Assembly: GCA_030765125.1 (NCBI GenBank)
Contig: JAVCDD010000128.1
Location: 1 to 44,519 of the forward strand
Source of the DNA: Candidatus Hatepunaea meridiana
GTDB taxonomy: Bacteria > Electryoneota > AABM5-125-24 > Hatepunaeales > Hatepunaeaceae
Length of the DNA stretch: 44,519 nucleotides
Direction: 5' to 3'
Shown: piece by piece, positions 5,156 through 43,952 of the stretch
Position numbering within the stretch: position 1 is the stretch's first letter
How the letters are laid out: every line of letters begins with the position of its first letter
Notes under the pieces: model-generated
What the model saw: the letters and a program-made list of their open reading frames with translations, nothing else
Databases searched by the model: none
Told to the model about the DNA's origin: nothing
Position numbers and translations under genes: made by a program

Positions 5156-5968
5156 TTATCCGAGAGCTACATCCAATATCATCATAACAGTAAAGCCGAT
5201 CATAACGCCTGCGGTTGCGATATGGGTGTTTCCATTGCGTTGAGCTTCAGGGATGACCTCCTCTGCAACCACGAAGATCATTGCACCAGCGGCGAAAGCG
5301 AGTGCATAAGGAAGGATTGAGCGAGAAGTTATAACAATGAAAGCTCCGATAACTCCCGCTACAGGTTCCGGCATACCTGATAATTGACCGTACCAAAAGC
5401 TCTTCGAGCGGGACATTCCTTCGCGTCTTAACGGCATCGAAACTATCATACCCTCGGGGAAGTTCTGAATGCCGATGCCCAATGCCAATGCAACTGCGCC
5501 GGGTAAAGTTGCCGAATCCAGTCCGGCAGCTACGGCGCCAAAAGCTACACCAACAGCAAGTCCTTCCGGGATATTATGCAATGTGATTGCCATAACCAGG
5601 AGGGTCGTTCGCTGCCAGTTTGTCTTTAAACCTTCCGCTTTTTCCACCGGATCACCTTGGTGGAGATGAGGCAGGATCATATCAACAATCCGCAAGAAGA
5701 TACCGCCCAACAAAAATCCTACTACTGCAGGCACCCAAACAGGTACAGGACCTCCCTCGGACATCTCGATTGCCGGAGCCAGTAATGACCAGTAACTGGC
5801 AGCAATCATCACACCAGCAGCAAAGCCGAGCATCCCATCCAGAACCTTCTTCGGCATATCCTTAGCAAAAAACACCACTGCTGCACCCAAGGCGGTCAGA
5901 AACCAGGTGAACCCGGTACCGAATAGGGTTTGAATGATGGGATTAAATTGTTCGAGGAATGTCAGCAT
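5156..5968 (-). CDS. ZIP-family metal transporter
   Basis: A 270-residue inner-membrane transporter of the ZIP family (ZupT/GufA-like), which imports divalent metals such as zinc, iron or manganese. About eight membrane segments are visible. The metal site is seen in the paired helices: TLHNIPEGLAVGVAFGA in one and GIGIQNFPEGMIVSMPL in the next. The cytoplasmic loop between early helices has a short histidine stretch (LPHLHQGD). No clear Shine-Dalgarno lies before the ATG at 5968. It is on the same strand as perR but upstream, and perR has its own promoter in the gap. Metal specificity cannot be read from the sequence; the position next to the iron cluster suggests iron or zinc. Confidence 0.93.
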   Translation of the reverse strand: MLTFLEQFNPIIQTLFGTGFTWFLTALGAAVVFFAKDMPKKVLDGMLGFAAGVMIAASYWSLLAPAIEMSEGGPVPVWVPAVVGFLLGGIFLRIVDMILPHLHQGDPVEKAEGLKTNWQRTTLLVMAITLHNIPEGLAVGVAFGAVAAGLDSATLPGAVALALGIGIQNFPEGMIVSMPLRREGMSRSKSFWYGQLSGMPEPVAGVIGAFIVITSRSILPYALAFAAGAMIFVVAEEVIPEAQRNGNTHIATAGVMIGFTVMMILDVALG

Positions 5969-6051
5969 TTTACTATTTTAGTAAATTAGTATGCAATTCA
6001 CAACAGATTATAATGATTGAACAGATAAAATAAAAGATATAGCAATCATTA

Positions 6052-6144
6052 GAGTTCGGAGTCCAGCCTTCAGGCTGCATTTGCATACAGTTCAGAGTCC
6101 TCGTTTTGGGAAATAAAACAGCCTGAAGGCTGGACTCTGAACTC
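6052..6144. repeat. palindromic intergenic repeat (TCCAGCCTTCAGGCTG family), copy 1
   Basis: The arms GAGTTCGGAGTCCAGCCTTC and the reverse complement ending GGACTCTGAACTC pair over more than 20 bases. The same element occurs at 38171-38262 inside the CRISPR-cas locus. Confidence 0.8.
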
Positions 6145-6148
6145 ATCA

Positions 6149-7147
6149 TCAATCCATCAACCTTTTATCTCCGGAAATCTCCTGTATATCCTTTATATCC
6201 TGCGTGACCTCCATAGATCCAAGATATTTCCCCTCCTGATCCCGAACGGCGAAGTATCTGATATAGACATACTTATCCTGTAGATGAATCCAGAAGCCGA
6301 CTTCATCCTTGGCGCCGCTCTTGAAATCTGCCAGTATCTGGTTGACCATATGAACGCTTTTTTGAGGATGGCAATTCTGAACCTTTGTGCCAATCGCAGC
6401 AACAGTTCTGACGAAGACAGCGTCTTTCACCTTGTTGAAATATCTGAAGGTGTCATCCTTGTCCACAAAGGTAATCTCAACCGGCAGGGTGTTCAGCATT
6501 GCGACGAGTTCCTCTGTCGAAAGCTGACCGGAACCGGTGTCTATCCCTCCGCTGTCCAATTTCTCTTCTGTCTTTGTTTCAGCCTTTTCCACCGTCGTTA
6601 AAGCAGACTTTGGCGAAAAACAGCAATACCCGATTTCGTTAAACTGACGGATTGTTTCCTGCCATTCCTCTTCAGTGAATAGTTTAAGCGCCATTGGGAA
6701 AAGGATTTTGTTTTCCTTATTGTAATGTGTCATAAGAAGGTCAAACAAGGCTATAGCATTGCTATTGAGCCTTGACTTAAAACTACTGAAATTCGCCTTG
6801 CCGACTTCTTCCATCAATGCGTAAATCTTCTTCTCACAATCTCGAATCTGATCGTGCTCCGCCCACATCTGCGAAGGTGGTCCACTGACGCCGTGCTTCT
6901 CCAGATAGGGGAAAAGAACATTTTCCTCGCGGAGGTAATGTTTCTGCGAAGCTTTGAAGTGATCTATTATTCCCGTGATCCTGGAACCCAGTTCTCTGGC
7001 TTCTTCAAAGCTGTTCAACTCCTTCAACGCTTCGGTTGACTTCACAAACTCAGCGGCAAAGCCAAGTACTGAATTATGTTCCTCCATCAAAGTATGGATG
7101 GGATGACCTTCAGGCGCGATACTTGGTGTATTTGGTATTTCGTTCAT
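6149..7147 (-). CDS. hemerythrin-PAS protein (DUF438-like)
   Basis: A 332-residue cytoplasmic protein. The N-terminal half is a hemerythrin HHE domain with the histidine pattern of an oxygen- or NO-binding diiron centre: HPIHTLMEEHNSVL, DHFKASQKHYLREENVLFPYL, WAEHDQIRDCEKK and THYNKENKILFP. A linker of about 40 residues leads to a C-terminal PAS domain (NTLPVEITFVDKDDTFRYF, then NCHPQKSVHMVNQIL and YFAVRDQEGKYLGSMEVTQD), the layout of the DUF438/PAS family. The start at 7147 (MNEIPNTP) has AGGAG eight bases upstream; the longer frame to 7225 is AT-rich filler. Such proteins are common in anaerobes and are thought to sense or scavenge oxygen or NO; the output partner is unknown. It is divergent from the gene at 7321. 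Confidence 0.9.
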   Translation of the reverse strand: MNEIPNTPSIAPEGHPIHTLMEEHNSVLGFAAEFVKSTEALKELNSFEEARELGSRITGIIDHFKASQKHYLREENVLFPYLEKHGVSGPPSQMWAEHDQIRDCEKKIYALMEEVGKANFSSFKSRLNSNAIALFDLLMTHYNKENKILFPMALKLFTEEEWQETIRQFNEIGYCCFSPKSALTTVEKAETKTEEKLDSGGIDTGSGQLSTEELVAMLNTLPVEITFVDKDDTFRYFNKVKDAVFVRTVAAIGTKVQNCHPQKSVHMVNQILADFKSGAKDEVGFWIHLQDKYVYIRYFAVRDQEGKYLGSMEVTQDIKDIQEISGDKRLMD

Positions 7148-36288: not shown

Positions 36289-36701
36289 TTATCAATCCTT
36301 TCTTAATCAAGGAATGTCTTCCGACTTAGATAAGGCTACTGGTGGATTGCATACAATGGAAGGGTCTCAATCCTTTCTTAATCAAGGAATGTCTTCCGAC
36401 CTATAGTCTTCTCAGAGAGTTCGGGGTTCTCAGCTGTTCAGTCTCAATCCTTTCTTAATCAAGGAATGTCTTCCGACTAAACAATAACAACGGCAGTCTT
36501 TATGTGGGTACTGAGTCTCAATCCTTTCTTAATCAAGGAATGTCTTCCGACCCATACAAGGTTCAAGTATTCCTACATACCAGTTTTTGTCTCAATCCTT
36601 TCTTAATCAAGGAATGTCTTCCGACTGAATCTTTATCAGGTGATCCGCTTGTTTATCCAAATAAGTCTCAATCCTTTCTTAATCAAGGAATGTCTTCCGA
36701 C
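36289..36701 (-). CRISPR. type III CRISPR array, 6 repeats and 5 spacers
   Basis: Six 37-bp repeats (plus strand begins GTCTCAATCCTTTCTTAATC and ends GGAATGTCTTCCGAC) lie at 36289, 36364, 36441, 36515, 36589 and 36665. Spacers are 38, 40, 37, 37 and 39 bp. The repeat at 36289 is degenerate over its first bases on the plus strand, marking the distal end. On the minus strand the repeat ends GGATTGAGAC, as usual for the crRNA 3' end side. So transcription runs leftward from a leader at 36702-36880, in the direction of the cas genes. The five spacers are all different. Confidence 0.97.
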
Positions 36702-36880
36702 CTTAATAGCTAATCTCCAAGCAGGAAGCTGATTTACAAGCTCGTTTCCCCAAACCTATTTTGAATGTCTTTCAGTTTTGTGTGTTTCATTAATCCAATT
36801 TTATATCTACTTAAAAAACAACGGCATGTATTTCCCCAAACCTACCCTTGTTTTCACCGGTTTAGAGGTTTGGTGAAATG
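36702..36880 (-). promoter_or_regulatory. CRISPR leader
   Basis: This AT-rich stretch lies between the array and cas2. TTTCCCCAAACCTA occurs twice, at 36745-36758 and 36831-36844 (86 bases apart). A near-inverted version (TAGAGGTTTGGTGAAA) lies at 36863-36878, beside the cas2 end. Such repeated motifs could be docking sites for the adaptation complex; that role is inferred. Confidence 0.65.
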
Positions 36881-37159
36881 CTATACTATATACACATCAG
36901 GAACTTCCATAGCCGTTCCGACACCGAATAATATAATGCCTTTCTTGCAGGATTCACATAGTGGATATATACGGATCGAGTCCTCTTCGTCGATTTTGAA
37001 CTTTTTTAACTTGCTCAGACAGCGGTCAAATATTTCCCTATCGAGTCTTGGCAGTTCAAATACCGATTCCTGGACGCGATCGCCGTAATTATCGAGCATC
37101 TTAGCTAATTTTGTCCGCTTCTTATCGTTAGAGATGTCGTAGCAAATCAGATAATTCAT
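36881..37159 (-). CDS. cas2: Cas2, adaptation protein
   Basis: A 92-residue ferredoxin-fold protein, the usual length. It starts MNYLICYDISNDKKRTKLAK with the conserved Asp after the first strand, then YGDRVQESVFELPRLDRE and SIRIYPLCESCKKGIILFG. With Cas1 it forms the complex that inserts new spacers; the Cas2 dimer bridges two Cas1 dimers. Its start overlaps the cas1 stop by one base, so the two are translationally coupled. The gene ends beside the leader of the array. Confidence 0.96.
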   Translation of the reverse strand: MNYLICYDISNDKKRTKLAKMLDNYGDRVQESVFELPRLDREIFDRCLSKLKKFKIDEEDSIRIYPLCESCKKGIILFGVGTAMEVPDVYIV

Positions 37160-38136
37160 TAGTGCGCCTTGAATTTAGGATGGTCGGGGAAATCTTGTTT
37201 TCCCATTATTACTCGTGCAGCGCTTTCGACCTGGCACCGCATTATTTTAAACACCTCTTCATTAGCCAGATGCTTCTCCCACTCCTTGAAGAATCTCTTT
37301 AGCGCCTTTTGCGTCAACCTTTGCCCTCCGTCGTTCTGTGGTATGAAATCATCTATTTTGAAAACACTGAGGTTAAACATTTTCACAACCCAGCGATCAA
37401 TGTAAGGGGCGCGGTAAGGCTCCAATAGATCAAGTGCAAGACTGGGACGACCATAATCCAGTTGGTGCATCCATCCTACAAACGGATCGAATCCGTGTGC
37501 ATTCAAGATCGATTGCAGCCTCGAACCAAGCAGTGTATATCCAAATGAGAGCAAAGCATTTACCGGATCCCCCGGCGGTCTGCGGCTGCGACCTTTGAAC
37601 AAGTTTGAGCCCTTTTTTAACAATAAAGCAAACGCATCGAAATAAGCTCTCGCTGCAGATCCTTCTATACCGTTTAATTCATCGATGCTTGTCGTATTTT
37701 TTACATTTTTTACAGCTTTTTTCAACCTGTTTCGAGCCTCGATAAAAGCATCATCATCCCTTCTCCAGTCCGCTTGCTTTAGAACTTCAAGGCTGTTGGC
37801 AATTTTAACACGAACAATTTCTCGTGCCTGTTTGATTACAAACTTATTATTCGACGCTTGATTATGCTGCTGGTTTCGCAGGATAACGTTTTTAGCAAAC
37901 GGTGGAATTAACTGTCCACGAAGATTACCGCTCATAGAAAGGAACGACATTTCAATATTATTCTTCAACAGCTCAACAACTGCTTGTGTAGTAAACTGTA
38001 CGTTACCGAAGATCAGGACTGAATCAATCCGATGTAATTCTACTTCCAGAAGCTCAACGTCATCCTTTTCCACTATTAAGGATTCACCGCGTTTGTGCAG
38101 TTCGGATCCTTGTTCTGTTAGATAAAGAGTCGCCAT
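37159..38136 (-). CDS. cas1: Cas1 integrase
   Basis: A 325-residue spacer integrase of normal length. The N-terminal beta domain begins TLYLTEQGSELHKRGESLIV. The helical domain carries the metal-binding triad E158 (NGIEGSAARAYF), H224 (GWMHQLDYGRPSLALD) and E239 (LLEPYR). All three are present, so it should be active. It is followed without gap by cas2. Upstream there are 189 bases filled with repeats instead of the expected csm5. The ATG at 38136 has no strong Shine-Dalgarno. Confidence 0.96.
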   Translation of the reverse strand: MATLYLTEQGSELHKRGESLIVEKDDVELLEVELHRIDSVLIFGNVQFTTQAVVELLKNNIEMSFLSMSGNLRGQLIPPFAKNVILRNQQHNQASNNKFVIKQAREIVRVKIANSLEVLKQADWRRDDDAFIEARNRLKKAVKNVKNTTSIDELNGIEGSAARAYFDAFALLLKKGSNLFKGRSRRPPGDPVNALLSFGYTLLGSRLQSILNAHGFDPFVGWMHQLDYGRPSLALDLLEPYRAPYIDRWVVKMFNLSVFKIDDFIPQNDGGQRLTQKALKRFFKEWEKHLANEEVFKIMRCQVESAARVIMGKQDFPDHPKFKAH

Positions 38137-38170
38137 TTTTCAGGGTTTAGAGTTTACGCTTCAGCGTGTC

Positions 38171-38262
38171 GAGTTCAGAGTCCAGCCTTCAGGCTGTCTT
38201 GAGCTTAAAGTTCACTCCGTTAGTTCGTTAAAGAAAACAGCCTAAAGGCTGGACTCTGAACT
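38171..38262. repeat. palindromic repeat (TCCAGCCTTCAGGCTG family), copy 2
   Basis: The arms GAGTTCAGAGTCCAGCCTTC and the complement AGGCTGGACTCTGAAC match the element at 6052-6144. It lies between csm4 and cas1, the place where csm5 is normally found. Confidence 0.8.
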
Positions 38263-38280
38263 TTTTAATTTCGGTGTAAT

Positions 38281-38330
38281 GACAGACGAGAATGTCTATC
38301 CTACCGACAGACAGGAATGTCTATCCTACC
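38281..38330. repeat. tandem 25-bp repeat overlapping the csm4 end
   Basis: Two copies (38281-38305 and 38306-38330) share GAATGTCTATCCTACC after GACAGAC; the second runs into the last codons and stop of csm4. It is the same family as the inverted repeat near 7934. Confidence 0.7.
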
Positions 38331-39282
38331 CGGCGATGACGCTATACCGCAAGGGAAGCGCTATGCTCTGACAGCCTTGAACAATGTCCGGATAAACTGG
38401 TGAGACATCGCAGACTACTCTACCACACCAGGGACGTAAATTACCATCCGATCTGAAGACGGCACCGGGTTCGAACTGTATCAATGGTCGCTTGAAGGGA
38501 AGTTCGCTTAAGGCAAGATGCTCGCCTAATGCTCCCTTCTTTACGCGGATTTTCCAGCGTCCATCGGTGGGGTCGTTAGTTGCGGGGACATAACTGGATA
38601 ACGATATAAAGCCGTCGGCATCCGGAATGTTATCCCAATCATCCAACTTTTCTATGTCAAGTAAAATGAACTGCCCCAGACCAACCGACTTGTCACGTCC
38701 GAAGCCGACTTTCGACAATAAGCCTAACAATTCCTTAAGGATCGCGAGACCGTTTTCAGAAGCGCGCACATATACCTGCAAGTTTCTGGTATTCCTCGCT
38801 GAAGCAGCGTCTTCACCAAGATCAGGCAGCCAGGCATCGGTCTGGAAAAGCTCACCTGCCGATCCCTCGCCTCCCGTGCGGTTGGTGTTTCTATCGAGTG
38901 AAGCGTGCAGAGTTTCGGTATGTTTCCAACCGGAGCCAGGCGGTTTACCTTTGTAATCCCGACCTGAGCAAACATCGTGGAACTGCGCTATTGTCAGATA
39001 TTTCGACTTGCGACGCTCCTTAAGCTCTCCATATTCCTCTACGGTTGATGCAATATCATCATCCAATCGCGAAAGCAACGGTCGCGGCAGCATTCCGGCA
39101 GGAAAACCGTCTGACAGGACATAGGGTGGATCACCGTTAAGAAATGGTTTCAGGAAGTTTTTCAGAGCGTCCTCACCATCCCGAAAGACGAGCTGCCAGC
39201 AGAGCTGCCCGAAGAGCGTATCTGACTGCCAGAGGCTGCCGGTGGGGGAAGTCAGGCATAAGTTTATGCGGTATAAATCCAC
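38326..39282 (-). CDS. csm4: Csm4, 5'-handle RAMP subunit
   Basis: A 318-residue RAMP (Cas5-group) subunit that binds the 5' tag of the crRNA and contacts Cas10. Characteristic parts are the start LYRINLCLTSPTGSLWQSDT with LFGQLCWQLVF, the middle LYGQ-less segment EHTETLHASLDRNT-like (read here as TETLHASLDRNTNR), and the glycine loop KVGFGRDKSVGLGQF. Length is normal for Csm4. It follows csm3 immediately. Its last codons lie inside a tandem intergenic repeat (38281-38330), so the native C-terminus may have been altered where csm5 was lost. Confidence 0.9.
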   Translation of the reverse strand: MDLYRINLCLTSPTGSLWQSDTLFGQLCWQLVFRDGEDALKNFLKPFLNGDPPYVLSDGFPAGMLPRPLLSRLDDDIASTVEEYGELKERRKSKYLTIAQFHDVCSGRDYKGKPPGSGWKHTETLHASLDRNTNRTGGEGSAGELFQTDAWLPDLGEDAASARNTRNLQVYVRASENGLAILKELLGLLSKVGFGRDKSVGLGQFILLDIEKLDDWDNIPDADGFISLSSYVPATNDPTDGRWKIRVKKGALGEHLALSELPFKRPLIQFEPGAVFRSDGNLRPWCGRVVCDVSPVYPDIVQGCQSIALPLRYSVIAG

Positions 39283-40029
39283 TTACACAGCCAACCTTTT
39301 CAAATACTTACTCATGGAAATCACCTCTGCTTCGTCTCCTTCTTCAGCCTCCGGGTCGAAGTAGGTTATTTCGACCTGACCGTATCCGCGGGTGCCGTTG
39401 CCACCGAGGTAGTCATCCTCCAACAGTTCGAATGCTTCACCGAGCATCCCGAAGAATTCCTTGCTTCTCGGTTCATCCTCCTCGAACAGACGAATCGTCA
39501 TAGTAAAACCGAATTCCATTCCCTCTGGAATCCGTTCCTGCTCACGGAGCGCTCCTCTTGCTGCATTTCCGGTTTTCCTGTCCATAGCAATCTCTGTTTT
39601 AACCTCGACGAAGGATCCAGGTAGGGTTTCCTTGAGTTCATTCTCCGATTCCTCTGTTAAGAAGGCGTCTCTAAAGATCAGGCGTGTAGGCTCATCGATG
39701 GGTTTAATTCCTACATCATATTTCCTTTCATAATTGGAAACATCAGATTTTTTAGGTAAACCGTGACCAAACATACTGCATATTGTACAATTACCACAAA
39801 AGCATACTAATCCAGTACGTTGGGATACCTCGCTGTATCTTAATTCAAGCAAAGATCGAATTTTCCCTTTCATCGATGAACCAGGTATGTATGGCAGGCG
39901 TGTAATCGGGTGACGGATAATTGGGTTATCGGTCTCACCAATGCCGAGTGAATCTTTCGTGCCTCCGATCTTCAATCCGGTCAGGCACTTTATTGTGCCC
40001 TGCACTTCTTTGTATTCAATGAGTTTCAT
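39283..40029 (-). CDS. csm3: Csm3, backbone RAMP and target-RNA nuclease
   Basis: A 248-residue Cas7-group subunit that forms the filament along the crRNA and cuts target RNA every six bases. D34 in GIGETDNPIIRHP is in the place of the catalytic Asp33 of other Csm3 proteins. PYIPGSSMKGKIRSLLELRY and the glycine loop LGGNGTRGYGQVEI are conserved. Four cysteines (C76, C78, C81, C84: CFCGNCTIC) form the zinc-binding patch known in Csm3. The gene directly abuts csm4 and is separated from csm2 by 13 bases, so they are cotranscribed. The active site appears intact. Confidence 0.95.
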   Translation of the reverse strand: MKLIEYKEVQGTIKCLTGLKIGGTKDSLGIGETDNPIIRHPITRLPYIPGSSMKGKIRSLLELRYSEVSQRTGLVCFCGNCTICSMFGHGLPKKSDVSNYERKYDVGIKPIDEPTRLIFRDAFLTEESENELKETLPGSFVEVKTEIAMDRKTGNAARGALREQERIPEGMEFGFTMTIRLFEEDEPRSKEFFGMLGEAFELLEDDYLGGNGTRGYGQVEITYFDPEAEEGDEAEVISMSKYLKRLAV

Positions 40030-40042
40030 AATGAACTCCTTT

Positions 40043-40579
40043 CTATTTAGGTTTGGTTTTCATTCGAGCCATTATACTGGTGAGGTATTCCACGAACCCA
40101 CGGAACTGGTCTTTGTCGCGGGTCGCTATTTCCCTGTGTTTATTAGCGAAGTCAAGGAACATATCCGGAATGATATTACGCTTGTTCTGATATTCGCAGT
40201 GTCTGATAAAGCGATAGTAGACCTCGCGCACACAATCAATATGAAATTCCTTTTCGTGCTTGATGCGACGCTCAGTGGATTTCAGCATACCGAACATAGA
40301 GCGGATTGAACTCTGTGACATTGACGGTTTTGCATTCATAAATATATCCGCCAGCGTTTCCGCTTCCTTAAGGAATATTTCCGGGCGTAAACATCCCGAC
40401 TCGGGAAGGTAGAAGTTTTCCATTGTACACTTGTCTGGAATTGTACCGCCAAAGCTCTGCGAACGACCACCCCGGGAAGCCCCTCTTGTTTGCTGACTGC
40501 AATTATAGCAGACGTCGTACGGTGGATTGGCTTTCCATTCGCCGCAGACTTTGCATTTATTTTTCTTGTTACTTTGCAT
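40043..40579 (-). CDS. csm2: Csm2 small subunit with N-terminal zinc ribbon
   Basis: A 178-residue protein. Residues about 68-175 are helical and match Csm2, the small subunit that lines the crRNA-target duplex (FLKEAETLADIFMNA, QSSIRSMFGMLKSTERR, FVEYLTSIMARMK). An extra N-terminal part has C9, C12, C24 and C27 (CKVCGEW and CYNC), a zinc ribbon, followed by a Gly/Arg/Ser-rich linker (RGASRGGRSQSFGG) like those of RNA-binding proteins. Csm2 usually has about 120-140 residues, so the extension is the odd feature. It lies between cas10 and csm3 on the same strand. Confidence 0.88.
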   Translation of the reverse strand: MQSNKKNKCKVCGEWKANPPYDVCYNCSQQTRGASRGGRSQSFGGTIPDKCTMENFYLPESGCLRPEIFLKEAETLADIFMNAKPSMSQSSIRSMFGMLKSTERRIKHEKEFHIDCVREVYYRFIRHCEYQNKRNIIPDMFLDFANKHREIATRDKDQFRGFVEYLTSIMARMKTKPK

Positions 40580-40620
40580 TATTACTCCATTTTATTTCTT
40601 GGATTGCATACTTTTTATTC

Positions 40621-42900
40621 TCACACACCATAAAGCGCATAATGGCAGCTTAACGTCAGAGCCGGCAGGTCTTTGAATGATGGGTCTTCAAGTCTTTGAG
40701 CCCAGGTTTTAGCCTCTTTCTCTTCGTAAGTCTTATCTTTCCAGTTCCGTTTCAGGTCGTAGATTAGCAGGTACACGTATCTAAGATTAGATGTGTCTCC
40801 CGTACGATGATATTCATCGAACATCCGGCTGTAGGTCATCAACCGGCGTATCTGGGAAACGTTGACTGTTCCGTTGCTGAGCCAATCCAGGAGCCGTTTC
40901 CCTCGATCCAGAGCTTTACGGGCATCCGCCCAGTTAAGAGTCTGGTTGAAGATAGTTATTTTATCTTTGGGTGGCGCTTTGGATTTGTTCAAAAGCTCAT
41001 CTGCCTGATCAACGGCTTGTAAGATCGGCGTCTTGGAATGCCCAATAAGTACACCTGCCGACAATCCCCAGTCGGGATTATTCTCAACGTATCTGCCAAA
41101 TTCCTTACGCAGGGTTATAATAAAATCGAGCGCCTGGTCCCAAGGACCAACTGCCAGCAGATCATCACCACCGGAATAAACAAGATACATGAGCGGGAAG
41201 CGTTTCTCAATCAGGTTTTCGACATATCCGCTGAAGAAACCTTCAAGAGCGCGGCTTAGAGTCGCAAAATGGGAGATAGACGTTCTATCAGGCGCACCCT
41301 CAGAGCCTTTTAATCCATTTGAGATAATGAATCCAAGGTTATCAATGTCAGCCTTGACAAATCCCAACGCAGAACGACCGGCGGCTTGATTGGCAATGTC
41401 TTCGAAAGTCAACAGTTCGCTGCCTGATTTAACAGGGACATGTCGAGCGAAACGGCTGCGAACAACAGTATCGTTGTTACCTGTCTTCAGTTCACTCCAG
41501 TTAAGTACAGCCAATGAGTTTTCAGGAATGGTCTCATTTTTCCCTATCAGGTCAAATCTTCCAAAAGGAAACCGGTTTATACCATCACCGGTATCATGAC
41601 TGAATGCCACACCCGCAGTCTTAGGTAGTCGTTGACCCATTTCACGTTCTTCTTCTATAATTTGGTCTGACAGCTTCACCTGTGGTCGCAGGAATTCATC
41701 TTCAACCCAAGCTTGCTTAATCAGACTTCGTGATAATGGACGTTTAGCTTGCTGATCCAGAGCTTCATTAACATTAATCAGTAAATTGGTAAAGTCCTTT
41801 ATTCCATCTCTATTCGTTGAAACCCAACCAAGATTAAAACGAAGCTGACCATTTGTAGTTTCAAGACTCCACGCATCCAGTTCTCTGGCGGTTGTTTCAA
41901 GGGTGTTCAGGCAGTCTTCATTATTGGGTAAAAGCAGGTACATTCGACCGCCTGCTGACATAATACGGTGTGATAAGGGAACCTGAACTTTATGCAGAAT
42001 ATGAAAAACGACATTCTCAACAAACAAGCGCACCGAAAAGGAACGTCCACGTAGAATTTTAGCAGATCCCTCTTCGCCGTGTTTTATATCAAACATATAT
42101 TTCTGTATACCGCCAAAGTCACCGGTGACAAGCAGGAATGGATTGTCTTTATCCTCATTCTTATAGATACAACCAGCAATCGCTGAAACAGCACGCGAAT
42201 GGTCATAAAGTGAAATATCAGGGAAGACATTGGTTGCCGCCGGAACGCACCAGGTGAATGCTTCCAGGTCGGAAAGCGCGCGGGTAAGATACTGCCAAGG
42301 GTCATTCAGACGGTTATTCTTCCACCTGTCAAGTAAACTATCCCAAAGCGATTTCCACTCAGCTTCCTGCACCGGAGTGTTTTCTATAGGGAACAAGACC
42401 GAACTATCCGATCCCCATTCGAGAACATTATGTCCACAAGAACTACCTGTAATTGCATTCTTATGTTCAAGTTGAATTTGTCCGCAGATTGGTATTAACC
42501 GCGCTTTTCTATAGGCGCTATAACCTTCGGGAGTAATATATTCAGGTGGATTAACTCTCTCAATCGCTGAGGCAAGGTGATCAGCCTCAGTAACAAGTTT
42601 CTGAAGGTCGGTTTCAGGTTGGTGATGCCTTGCAGACAGGTTAATCATTTGTGAAAAGTCAAAACATTCCGGCAGAGAATTCTCCACCAAGTTTAAGAAT
42701 TCGTTAGTATAAAGGACGTGCAGGTGAGAATGGAACTGTTTTTCAGGGAAACGTGGATCACCGGATTTAGGACATAATATTTCGGTCATTCTGCGGCTTT
42801 GTTCGGAAAGTCCACCTTTAGGCGGGAATGCTCTCTGACCAAGTTTGCCAATATCGTGAATTAACGCAGCAAGGCTAACATCCCAGAAAGTTGAATCCAT
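40621..42900 (-). CDS. cas10: Cas10 (Csm1), cyclic oligoadenylate synthase and DNase
   Basis: A 759-residue large subunit of the Csm complex. The N-terminal HD nuclease domain has ALIHDIGKLGQRAF (H15, D16) and a second pair in ARHHQPETD. The first palm domain (TGDFGGIQKYMFDI) and a second palm domain with YSGGDDLLAVG (GGDD at 577-580) are present, so both DNA cleavage and cyclic oligoadenylate synthesis should be possible. A C-terminal helical domain D follows. The CARF-HEPN protein at 35014-36270 is the expected receiver of the signal. It heads the operon cas10, csm2, csm3, csm4. No clear Shine-Dalgarno precedes the ATG. Confidence 0.96.
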   Translation of the reverse strand: MDSTFWDVSLAALIHDIGKLGQRAFPPKGGLSEQSRRMTEILCPKSGDPRFPEKQFHSHLHVLYTNEFLNLVENSLPECFDFSQMINLSARHHQPETDLQKLVTEADHLASAIERVNPPEYITPEGYSAYRKARLIPICGQIQLEHKNAITGSSCGHNVLEWGSDSSVLFPIENTPVQEAEWKSLWDSLLDRWKNNRLNDPWQYLTRALSDLEAFTWCVPAATNVFPDISLYDHSRAVSAIAGCIYKNEDKDNPFLLVTGDFGGIQKYMFDIKHGEEGSAKILRGRSFSVRLFVENVVFHILHKVQVPLSHRIMSAGGRMYLLLPNNEDCLNTLETTARELDAWSLETTNGQLRFNLGWVSTNRDGIKDFTNLLINVNEALDQQAKRPLSRSLIKQAWVEDEFLRPQVKLSDQIIEEEREMGQRLPKTAGVAFSHDTGDGINRFPFGRFDLIGKNETIPENSLAVLNWSELKTGNNDTVVRSRFARHVPVKSGSELLTFEDIANQAAGRSALGFVKADIDNLGFIISNGLKGSEGAPDRTSISHFATLSRALEGFFSGYVENLIEKRFPLMYLVYSGGDDLLAVGPWDQALDFIITLRKEFGRYVENNPDWGLSAGVLIGHSKTPILQAVDQADELLNKSKAPPKDKITIFNQTLNWADARKALDRGKRLLDWLSNGTVNVSQIRRLMTYSRMFDEYHRTGDTSNLRYVYLLIYDLKRNWKDKTYEEKEAKTWAQRLEDPSFKDLPALTLSCHYALYGV

Positions 42901-43415: not shown

Positions 43416-43952
43416 TTATGCACTAAGCATCCGCACCAGATCAGCTTTTGTCCGTAGCCTCGAGATGTGAAGCTCAGTGACCCGGTTGAACAGTGTCTTT
43501 CCGGTGAGCTGATCCAGATCCTCGTCTGGATTTTTCTCTTTGATGATCCTGAGAAAATCGGACTTGGTTCGTGCGATGCCGATCTTACGCTGCTTTGCAA
43601 GCGCCTGCAATTGCTTAACTGTCATCTTGGTGATGTCGGTCGATTCGCCTTCACCTTGTGCTTCACTCGGTTGTTCCTCTGACTGAGAACTCGGATCCGA
43701 TTCGTCTGAAGACTCATCCTCATTCGATGAAGCATCGCTGGTGTTCTCAATCTGCTGCGTTTCTGTTGCTTCCCGCTCTTCTGCAGAGGGAAGCAGAGCA
43801 ACCATAGGAAAGGATGCTGAGACCTGCTGTCCATCCTCTAGTTCGACTGTCCACCCACTACGATTCTTGGCAGTCAGATTACCTGTCTGGTCTTTGTACT
43901 GCCCGGCAGTGATCATAACGCGATCACCAATCTGCTTTTTCACTTTACTCAT
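43416..43952 (-). CDS. KOW-like and Rho-N/SAP-like nucleic-acid-binding protein
   Basis: A 178-residue protein in three parts. Residues 1-50 look like a KOW/SH3-type barrel (GDRVMITAGQYKDQTGNLTA, WTVELEDGQQVSASF). Residues about 55-105 are an acidic Ser/Glu-rich linker. Residues 108-178 hold two related helical modules: MTVKQLQALAKQRKIGIART with KSDFLRIIKEK, and TLFNRVTELHISRLRTKADL, like a Rho N-terminal/SAP motif pair. It may bind RNA or DNA. It has its own terminator and a start at 43952 with AGGAG upstream. A phage or mobile origin is possible but not shown; function unknown. Confidence 0.75.
   Translation of the reverse strand: MSKVKKQIGDRVMITAGQYKDQTGNLTAKNRSGWTVELEDGQQVSASFPMVALLPSAEEREATETQQIENTSDASSNEDESSDESDPSSQSEEQPSEAQGEGESTDITKMTVKQLQALAKQRKIGIARTKSDFLRIIKEKNPDEDLDQLTGKTLFNRVTELHISRLRTKADLVRMLSA

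Follow-up and report, generated by a model that had tools for sequence, protein, structure and literature searches.

A csm5-less type III-A-like CRISPR-Cas operon from Candidatus Hatepunaea meridiana belongs to an old branch spanning at least three phyla

Csm5 is taken to terminate the filament of the type III-A complex and to guide the maturation of its crRNA. In Candidatus Hatepunaea meridiana, a III-A operon passes from csm4 directly to cas1, which raises the question of whether csm5 was lost there recently or whether the whole lineage assembles its Csm complex without it. We analysed the stretch of DNA that carries this operon (44,519 nt, hereafter the window). Re-reading its minus strand with profile searches, we find the gene order of the original prediction: cas10/csm1 (42900-40621; 759 aa; TIGR02578, 498 bits), csm2 (40579-40043; 178 aa; PF03750, 28.2 bits against a cut-off of 24.8), csm3 (40029-39283; 248 aa; TIGR02582, 206.6 bits), csm4 (39282-38326; full length at 318 aa; TIGR01903, 93 bits), cas1 (38136-37159; TIGR00287, 249 bits) and cas2 (37159-36881; TIGR01573, 65 bits). 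The NCBIfam profile TIGR01870 gave the csm2 product only 17 bits, under its cut-off of 30.6. Of the residues said to be intact, those of Cas10 and Csm3 were also in place, with the HD motif at residues 15-16 and the GGDD motif at residues 577-580 of Cas10, and D34 in Csm3; the Csm3 alignment additionally shows a CFCGNCTIC motif.

The operon extends past the range first described. Beyond cas2, and likewise on the minus strand, lie a CRISPR array (36289-36706) of six repeats of ~37 nt and five spacers of ~37-40 nt, a Csm6/Csx1-type CARF-HEPN protein (36270-35014; TIGR02710, 224 bits; HEPN PF09670) and cas6 (34983-34027; PF10040, 64 bits; PADLOC Cas6, 226 bits). The distal repeat of the array is degenerate, and on the minus strand the repeat ends with ATTGAGAC, the presumed 5′ handle. 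Exact matches to two of the five spacers were absent from viral contigs. The Cas10 large subunit makes this a type III system. Csm2, the signature gene of subtype III-A, is present above the PF03750 cut-off and is accompanied by Csm3 and Csm4. Csm5 is missing from the canonical csm1-5 set; thus, we call the operon a III-A-like variant and keep it apart from canonical III-A.

We inspected the place where csm5 would be expected. The csm4-cas1 interval (38137-38325) measures exactly the predicted 189 nt. It consists mostly of repeat sequence and contains neither csm5, nor a recognisable remnant of it, nor a reading frame for another RAMP protein. One repeat is a 91-nt inverted-repeat element (38172-38262) whose arms (38172-38200 and 38234-38262) are 93% complementary; the other is a pair of tandem 25-nt direct repeats (38281-38305 and 38306-38330), two copies of a dispersed intergenic repeat. 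As RNA, the interval has a folding z-score of -9.9. As predicted, one element reaches into the end of csm4, where the second 25-nt repeat spans the stop codon. A gap filled largely by repeats, one of them lying over the csm4 stop codon, together with a short array, would fit a scenario in which a deletion between repeats recently removed csm5 from this genome and left the complex defective. Such a deletion had been proposed, but Csm4 has its natural C-terminus, aligning with the ends of its relatives and showing no truncation despite the stop codon inside the repeat. The repeats also occur elsewhere in the genome: the 91-nt element has a second copy at 6053-6143 of the window, and both families have more copies in ~260 kb sampled from the same genome, with none in 479 kb of control loci. 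Since these are dispersed intergenic elements, their presence between csm4 and cas1 tells little about a deletion.

Besides the operon, the remainder of the genome was searched. The Csm5 profile TIGR01899 found nothing over its cut-off in the whole 5.3-Mb assembly (92% complete), and its sole weak match was a short stretch inside csm3. The RAMP profile PF03787 had just four matches: Csm3 and, on contig C247, the Cmr1, Cmr4 and Cmr6 proteins of a type III-B operon. A csm5 in the missing part of the assembly is a remote possibility, but the III-A operon itself is unbroken. This confirms that the operon genuinely has no csm5 gene, and the same absence holds across the assembly, which answers the proposed check for a copy elsewhere. 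As the genome is 92% complete and encodes Cmr1, Cmr4 and Cmr6, a highly diverged Csm5 might still be encoded elsewhere, or the III-B Cmr proteins might cap the filament in trans. We regard both as very unlikely: the genome has just four RAMP-family matches, all of them assigned, and no Csm5 was found in eight other genomes with related loci, one of which carries its locus on a contig of nearly genome length.

The sampling for relatives covered genomes of three groups, namely the phylum of the source genome, Chloroflexota and Desulfobacterota. Three Csm4 relatives were found among genome contigs (L007, L008 and L009). L008 has csm5, and L007, from Kouleothrix (Chloroflexota), reads cas10-csm2-csm3-csm4-cas6 with no csm5. 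Searching 400 Chloroflexota genomes added a further locus (L013/L080) in which csm5 is absent and csm4 and cas6 overlap by 8 nt. Among 395 genomes of Desulfobacterota, the phylum of L009, there were five strong matches (L100-L104), all five without csm5, and a further member (L134, genome G838) was added later. A decayed member was found in genome G523 (L106, 5657-6911), with csm4 split into two frames, a csm3 fragment and no cas10; a separate contig of that genome carries an intact csm5-containing III-A locus, L107.

Profiles built from the collected loci detected csm5 in 34 others. No csm5 scored over the cut-off in the eight other genomes of the group (G039, G120, G478, G497, G565, G669, G806 and G838), whereas TIGR01899 does score in csm5-containing genomes and in control genomes. 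Most of these genomes are MAGs, and loci L100, L101, L104 and L134 end near a contig edge; G478 is a 2.5-Mb genome, and its locus sits on a contig of 2.54 Mb. The gene that follows csm4 differs between members: cas6 in L007 and L080, a CARF/Csm6 gene in L100, an unrelated gene in L101, a Card1-CARF-domain protein 9 nt downstream in L102 and a B116-like gene in L103. Csm4 identity to the window protein is 33-42% across the group, with L100 as the nearest relative (42%). Comparing the interval in relatives, as had been suggested, thus speaks against a recent deletion in the source genome: L100 and all other members lack csm5 too and have other neighbours. We consider that reading extremely improbable.

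We also looked for csm5-less relatives on mobile DNA. The window Csm4 matched neither viral contigs nor plasmids, and an alignment of the group matched no viral contig. One Csm4 of the group, searched against plasmids, matched only Thermus and Arcobacter plasmids. We opened nine plasmid III-A loci, these included, and all nine have csm5 directly after csm4; hence no csm5-less relative was found in the viral contigs or plasmids searched.

For phylogenetic analysis, the csm5-less loci were compared with 43 csm5-containing loci, nine of them the plasmid loci (from Deinococcota, Bacillota, Euryarchaeota, Rhodothermota, Cyanobacteriota and Campylobacterota); the decayed L106 was left out. Csm4 unites the csm5-less loci in one clade (9 rows, support 100/99), and so does Csm3 (8 rows, support 99/97); trees of smaller sets agree. 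Cas10 alone did not recover the clade, yet did not reject it (p-AU 0.187); the Cas10 of L007 is a very long branch. The window operon falls in the clade by both Csm4 and Csm3, with csm5 absent genome-wide. In the Csm4 tree, the clade is deeply nested among csm5-containing branches, which speaks for one loss of csm5 in an ancestor; as the trees are unrooted, the choice between a loss and never having had the gene rests on this nested position. The Csm4 identities of 33-42% to the window indicate that the clade is old. Judged by these sequences, the csm5-less loci of at least three phyla form one old branch. We therefore place the window operon in an ancient III-A branch without csm5, at the base of which the gene would have been lost once, and give this a probability of about 85%. 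The second option of the original prediction, a lineage that assembles Csm without csm5, is supported by this deep and well-supported clade, and the whole lineage probably builds its complex without the Csm5 cap.

Do these systems look maintained? Comparing two members, L103 and L104, we find dN/dS of 0.09-0.13 for cas10, csm2, csm3 and csm4, values that point to purifying selection from cas10 to csm4. Besides cas1 and cas2, L103 has kept an array of 35 repeats and genes for a Card1 nuclease and a B116-like protein, and several clade members retain arrays, cas1-cas2 and cOA-effector genes. Purifying selection and the retained parts together make the csm5-less systems look maintained. The B116-like protein of L103 (9099-9464; PF08960) adjoins Card1 and belongs to a family to which cOA ring nucleases are assigned. 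Some clade members may have changed in function. In two from Chloroflexota, L007 (cas10 at 2-2641) and L134 (2434-4245), Cas10 has lost GGDD, and that of L007 carries a ChrR-like cupin domain (PF12973) in place of the N-terminal HD domain. The position of Csm3 D34 is occupied by E in L007 (3400-4068) and L102 (6761-7606), which suggests a loss or change of target-RNA cleavage.

We then asked whether the clade has features that could stand in for Csm5. The window Csm2 consists of a helical core and an N-terminal CxxC-x11-CxxC extension resembling a zinc ribbon. Its AlphaFold2 model has a mean pLDDT of 82, low at the linker; the core is confident and the extension less certain. This zinc-ribbon-like motif is present in 5/8 clade Csm2 proteins, and the Csm2 of L007 (2657-3367) has a cold-shock domain fused at its N-terminus (PF00313, 45 bits). 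No CxxC-CxxC motif was seen in the Csm2 of the csm5-containing loci scanned, the Pfam run covering clade Csm2 only. The motif C-x-C-x(1,4)-C-x-x-C is common to the Csm3 proteins of the clade; among the Csm3 checked from csm5-containing loci, only that of L107 has it. The Csm2 modules could take over the contacts that the capping domain of Csm5 makes with Csm2 and target RNA (PMC10289348), and/or Cas6 held on the crRNA 3′ stem could close the Csm3 filament as in type I; cas6 lies in or near the locus in six members. This would refine the reading of an ancient csm5-less branch and is not an alternative to the clade. We think it possible but doubtful. The Csm2 modules are a correlation inside one clade, and an incomplete one: two of the eight proteins, from L080 and L134, have neither module. 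Moreover, the zinc-ribbon part is modelled with only moderate confidence, and cas6 also stands beside many csm5-containing systems. For the latter reason we dropped Cas6 as a distinguishing mark of the clade. Tentatively, then, the loci might represent a distinct III-A variant of at least three phyla that has no Csm5 cap, in which a Csm2 zinc-ribbon or cold-shock module and/or a Cas6 retained on the crRNA serves the distal end and the complex carries long crRNAs.

The window operon has the gene order of the III-A Cas10-Csm systems of S. epidermidis, S. thermophilus, L. lactis, T. onnurineus and S. marcescens, and shares with them Cas10/Csm1, Csm2, Csm3, Csm4, Cas6, a CARF-HEPN protein and cas1-cas2. 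In the solved Csm complexes checked, Csm5 caps the Csm3 filament, unlike in the window operon, where it is absent. The solved Csm4 nearest to that of the window is from S. marcescens (9zs2/9zs4). Because its Csm4 is by far the best PDB match, we considered 9zs2 as a candidate csm5-less complex and rejected it; this S. marcescens Cas10-Csm contains Csm5.

III-F systems repeat one cas7. The modelled III-H complex also repeats a single cas7 along the crRNA (PMC12669027), as the window variant would. However, III-H lacks adaptation genes and its Cas10 palm is inactive, whereas the window operon keeps GGDD, Csm3 D34, Csm2 and cas1-cas2 and is thus not III-H. The 2025 classification also describes III-A2, a III-A derivative that, like the window variant, is minus one canonical subunit (PMC12669027). 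The missing subunit there is Cas11 (Csm2), in contrast to the window operon, which has Csm2 and lacks Csm5. No description of a csm5-less III-A system was found in the PubMed Central papers searched; an earlier mention in subscription papers or in the supplements of the 2025 classification is possible.

A csm5-free complex is plausible, since S. epidermidis deleted for csm5 no longer matures its crRNA but still forms the remaining complex, and intermediate crRNAs can give immunity there under some conditions (PMC9762709). Structurally, the RAMP domain of Csm5 stops Csm3 extension and its capping domain stops Csm2 extension, and one reconstruction shows five Csm3 subunits without Csm2 or Csm5 (PMC10289348). 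In the window system, Cas6 would cut the pre-crRNA, and Csm4/Cas10 would hold the resulting 8-nt 5′ handle. Csm3 subunits would polymerise along the spacer, and Csm2 would make the second filament. Lacking Csm5, neither filament would be capped, nor would PNPase and RNase R be recruited for 3′ trimming, so that the crRNA would stay a Cas6-cut intermediate or end heterogeneously at the last Csm3. The variant would thus use one Cas7, Csm3, repeated along the spacer, and its crRNA would probably be longer or heterogeneous. Spacer length showed no obvious difference between csm5-less and csm5-containing loci. Target sensing and RNA cutting by Csm3 D34 may proceed as in ordinary III-A, and so may the action of the HD nuclease and of the cyclic oligoadenylates that signal to the CARF-HEPN protein. 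A natural lineage that has long been without Csm5, with its other subunits under selection, offers a test of the need for capping and 3′ trimming in type III immunity, and it points to a smaller effector set of cas10, csm2, csm3, csm4 and cas6.

Beside the III-A operon, the window encodes an acidic KOW/SAP-like protein (43416-43952). A paralogue (57% over 137 aa) lies at 5662-6267 of locus L081 (G000:C247:12000-31000), beside the III-B operon of the same genome; there is a third, weaker copy on L137 and none in the loci of other genomes compared. That III-B operon (L081, 6520-15530) comprises Cmr1, Cas10/Cmr2, Cmr3, Cmr4 and Cmr6; its neighbours are a membrane protein with a CorA domain (PF01544) and a 248-aa protein of unknown family, a layout that resembles the CorA-linked III-B signalling arrangement.
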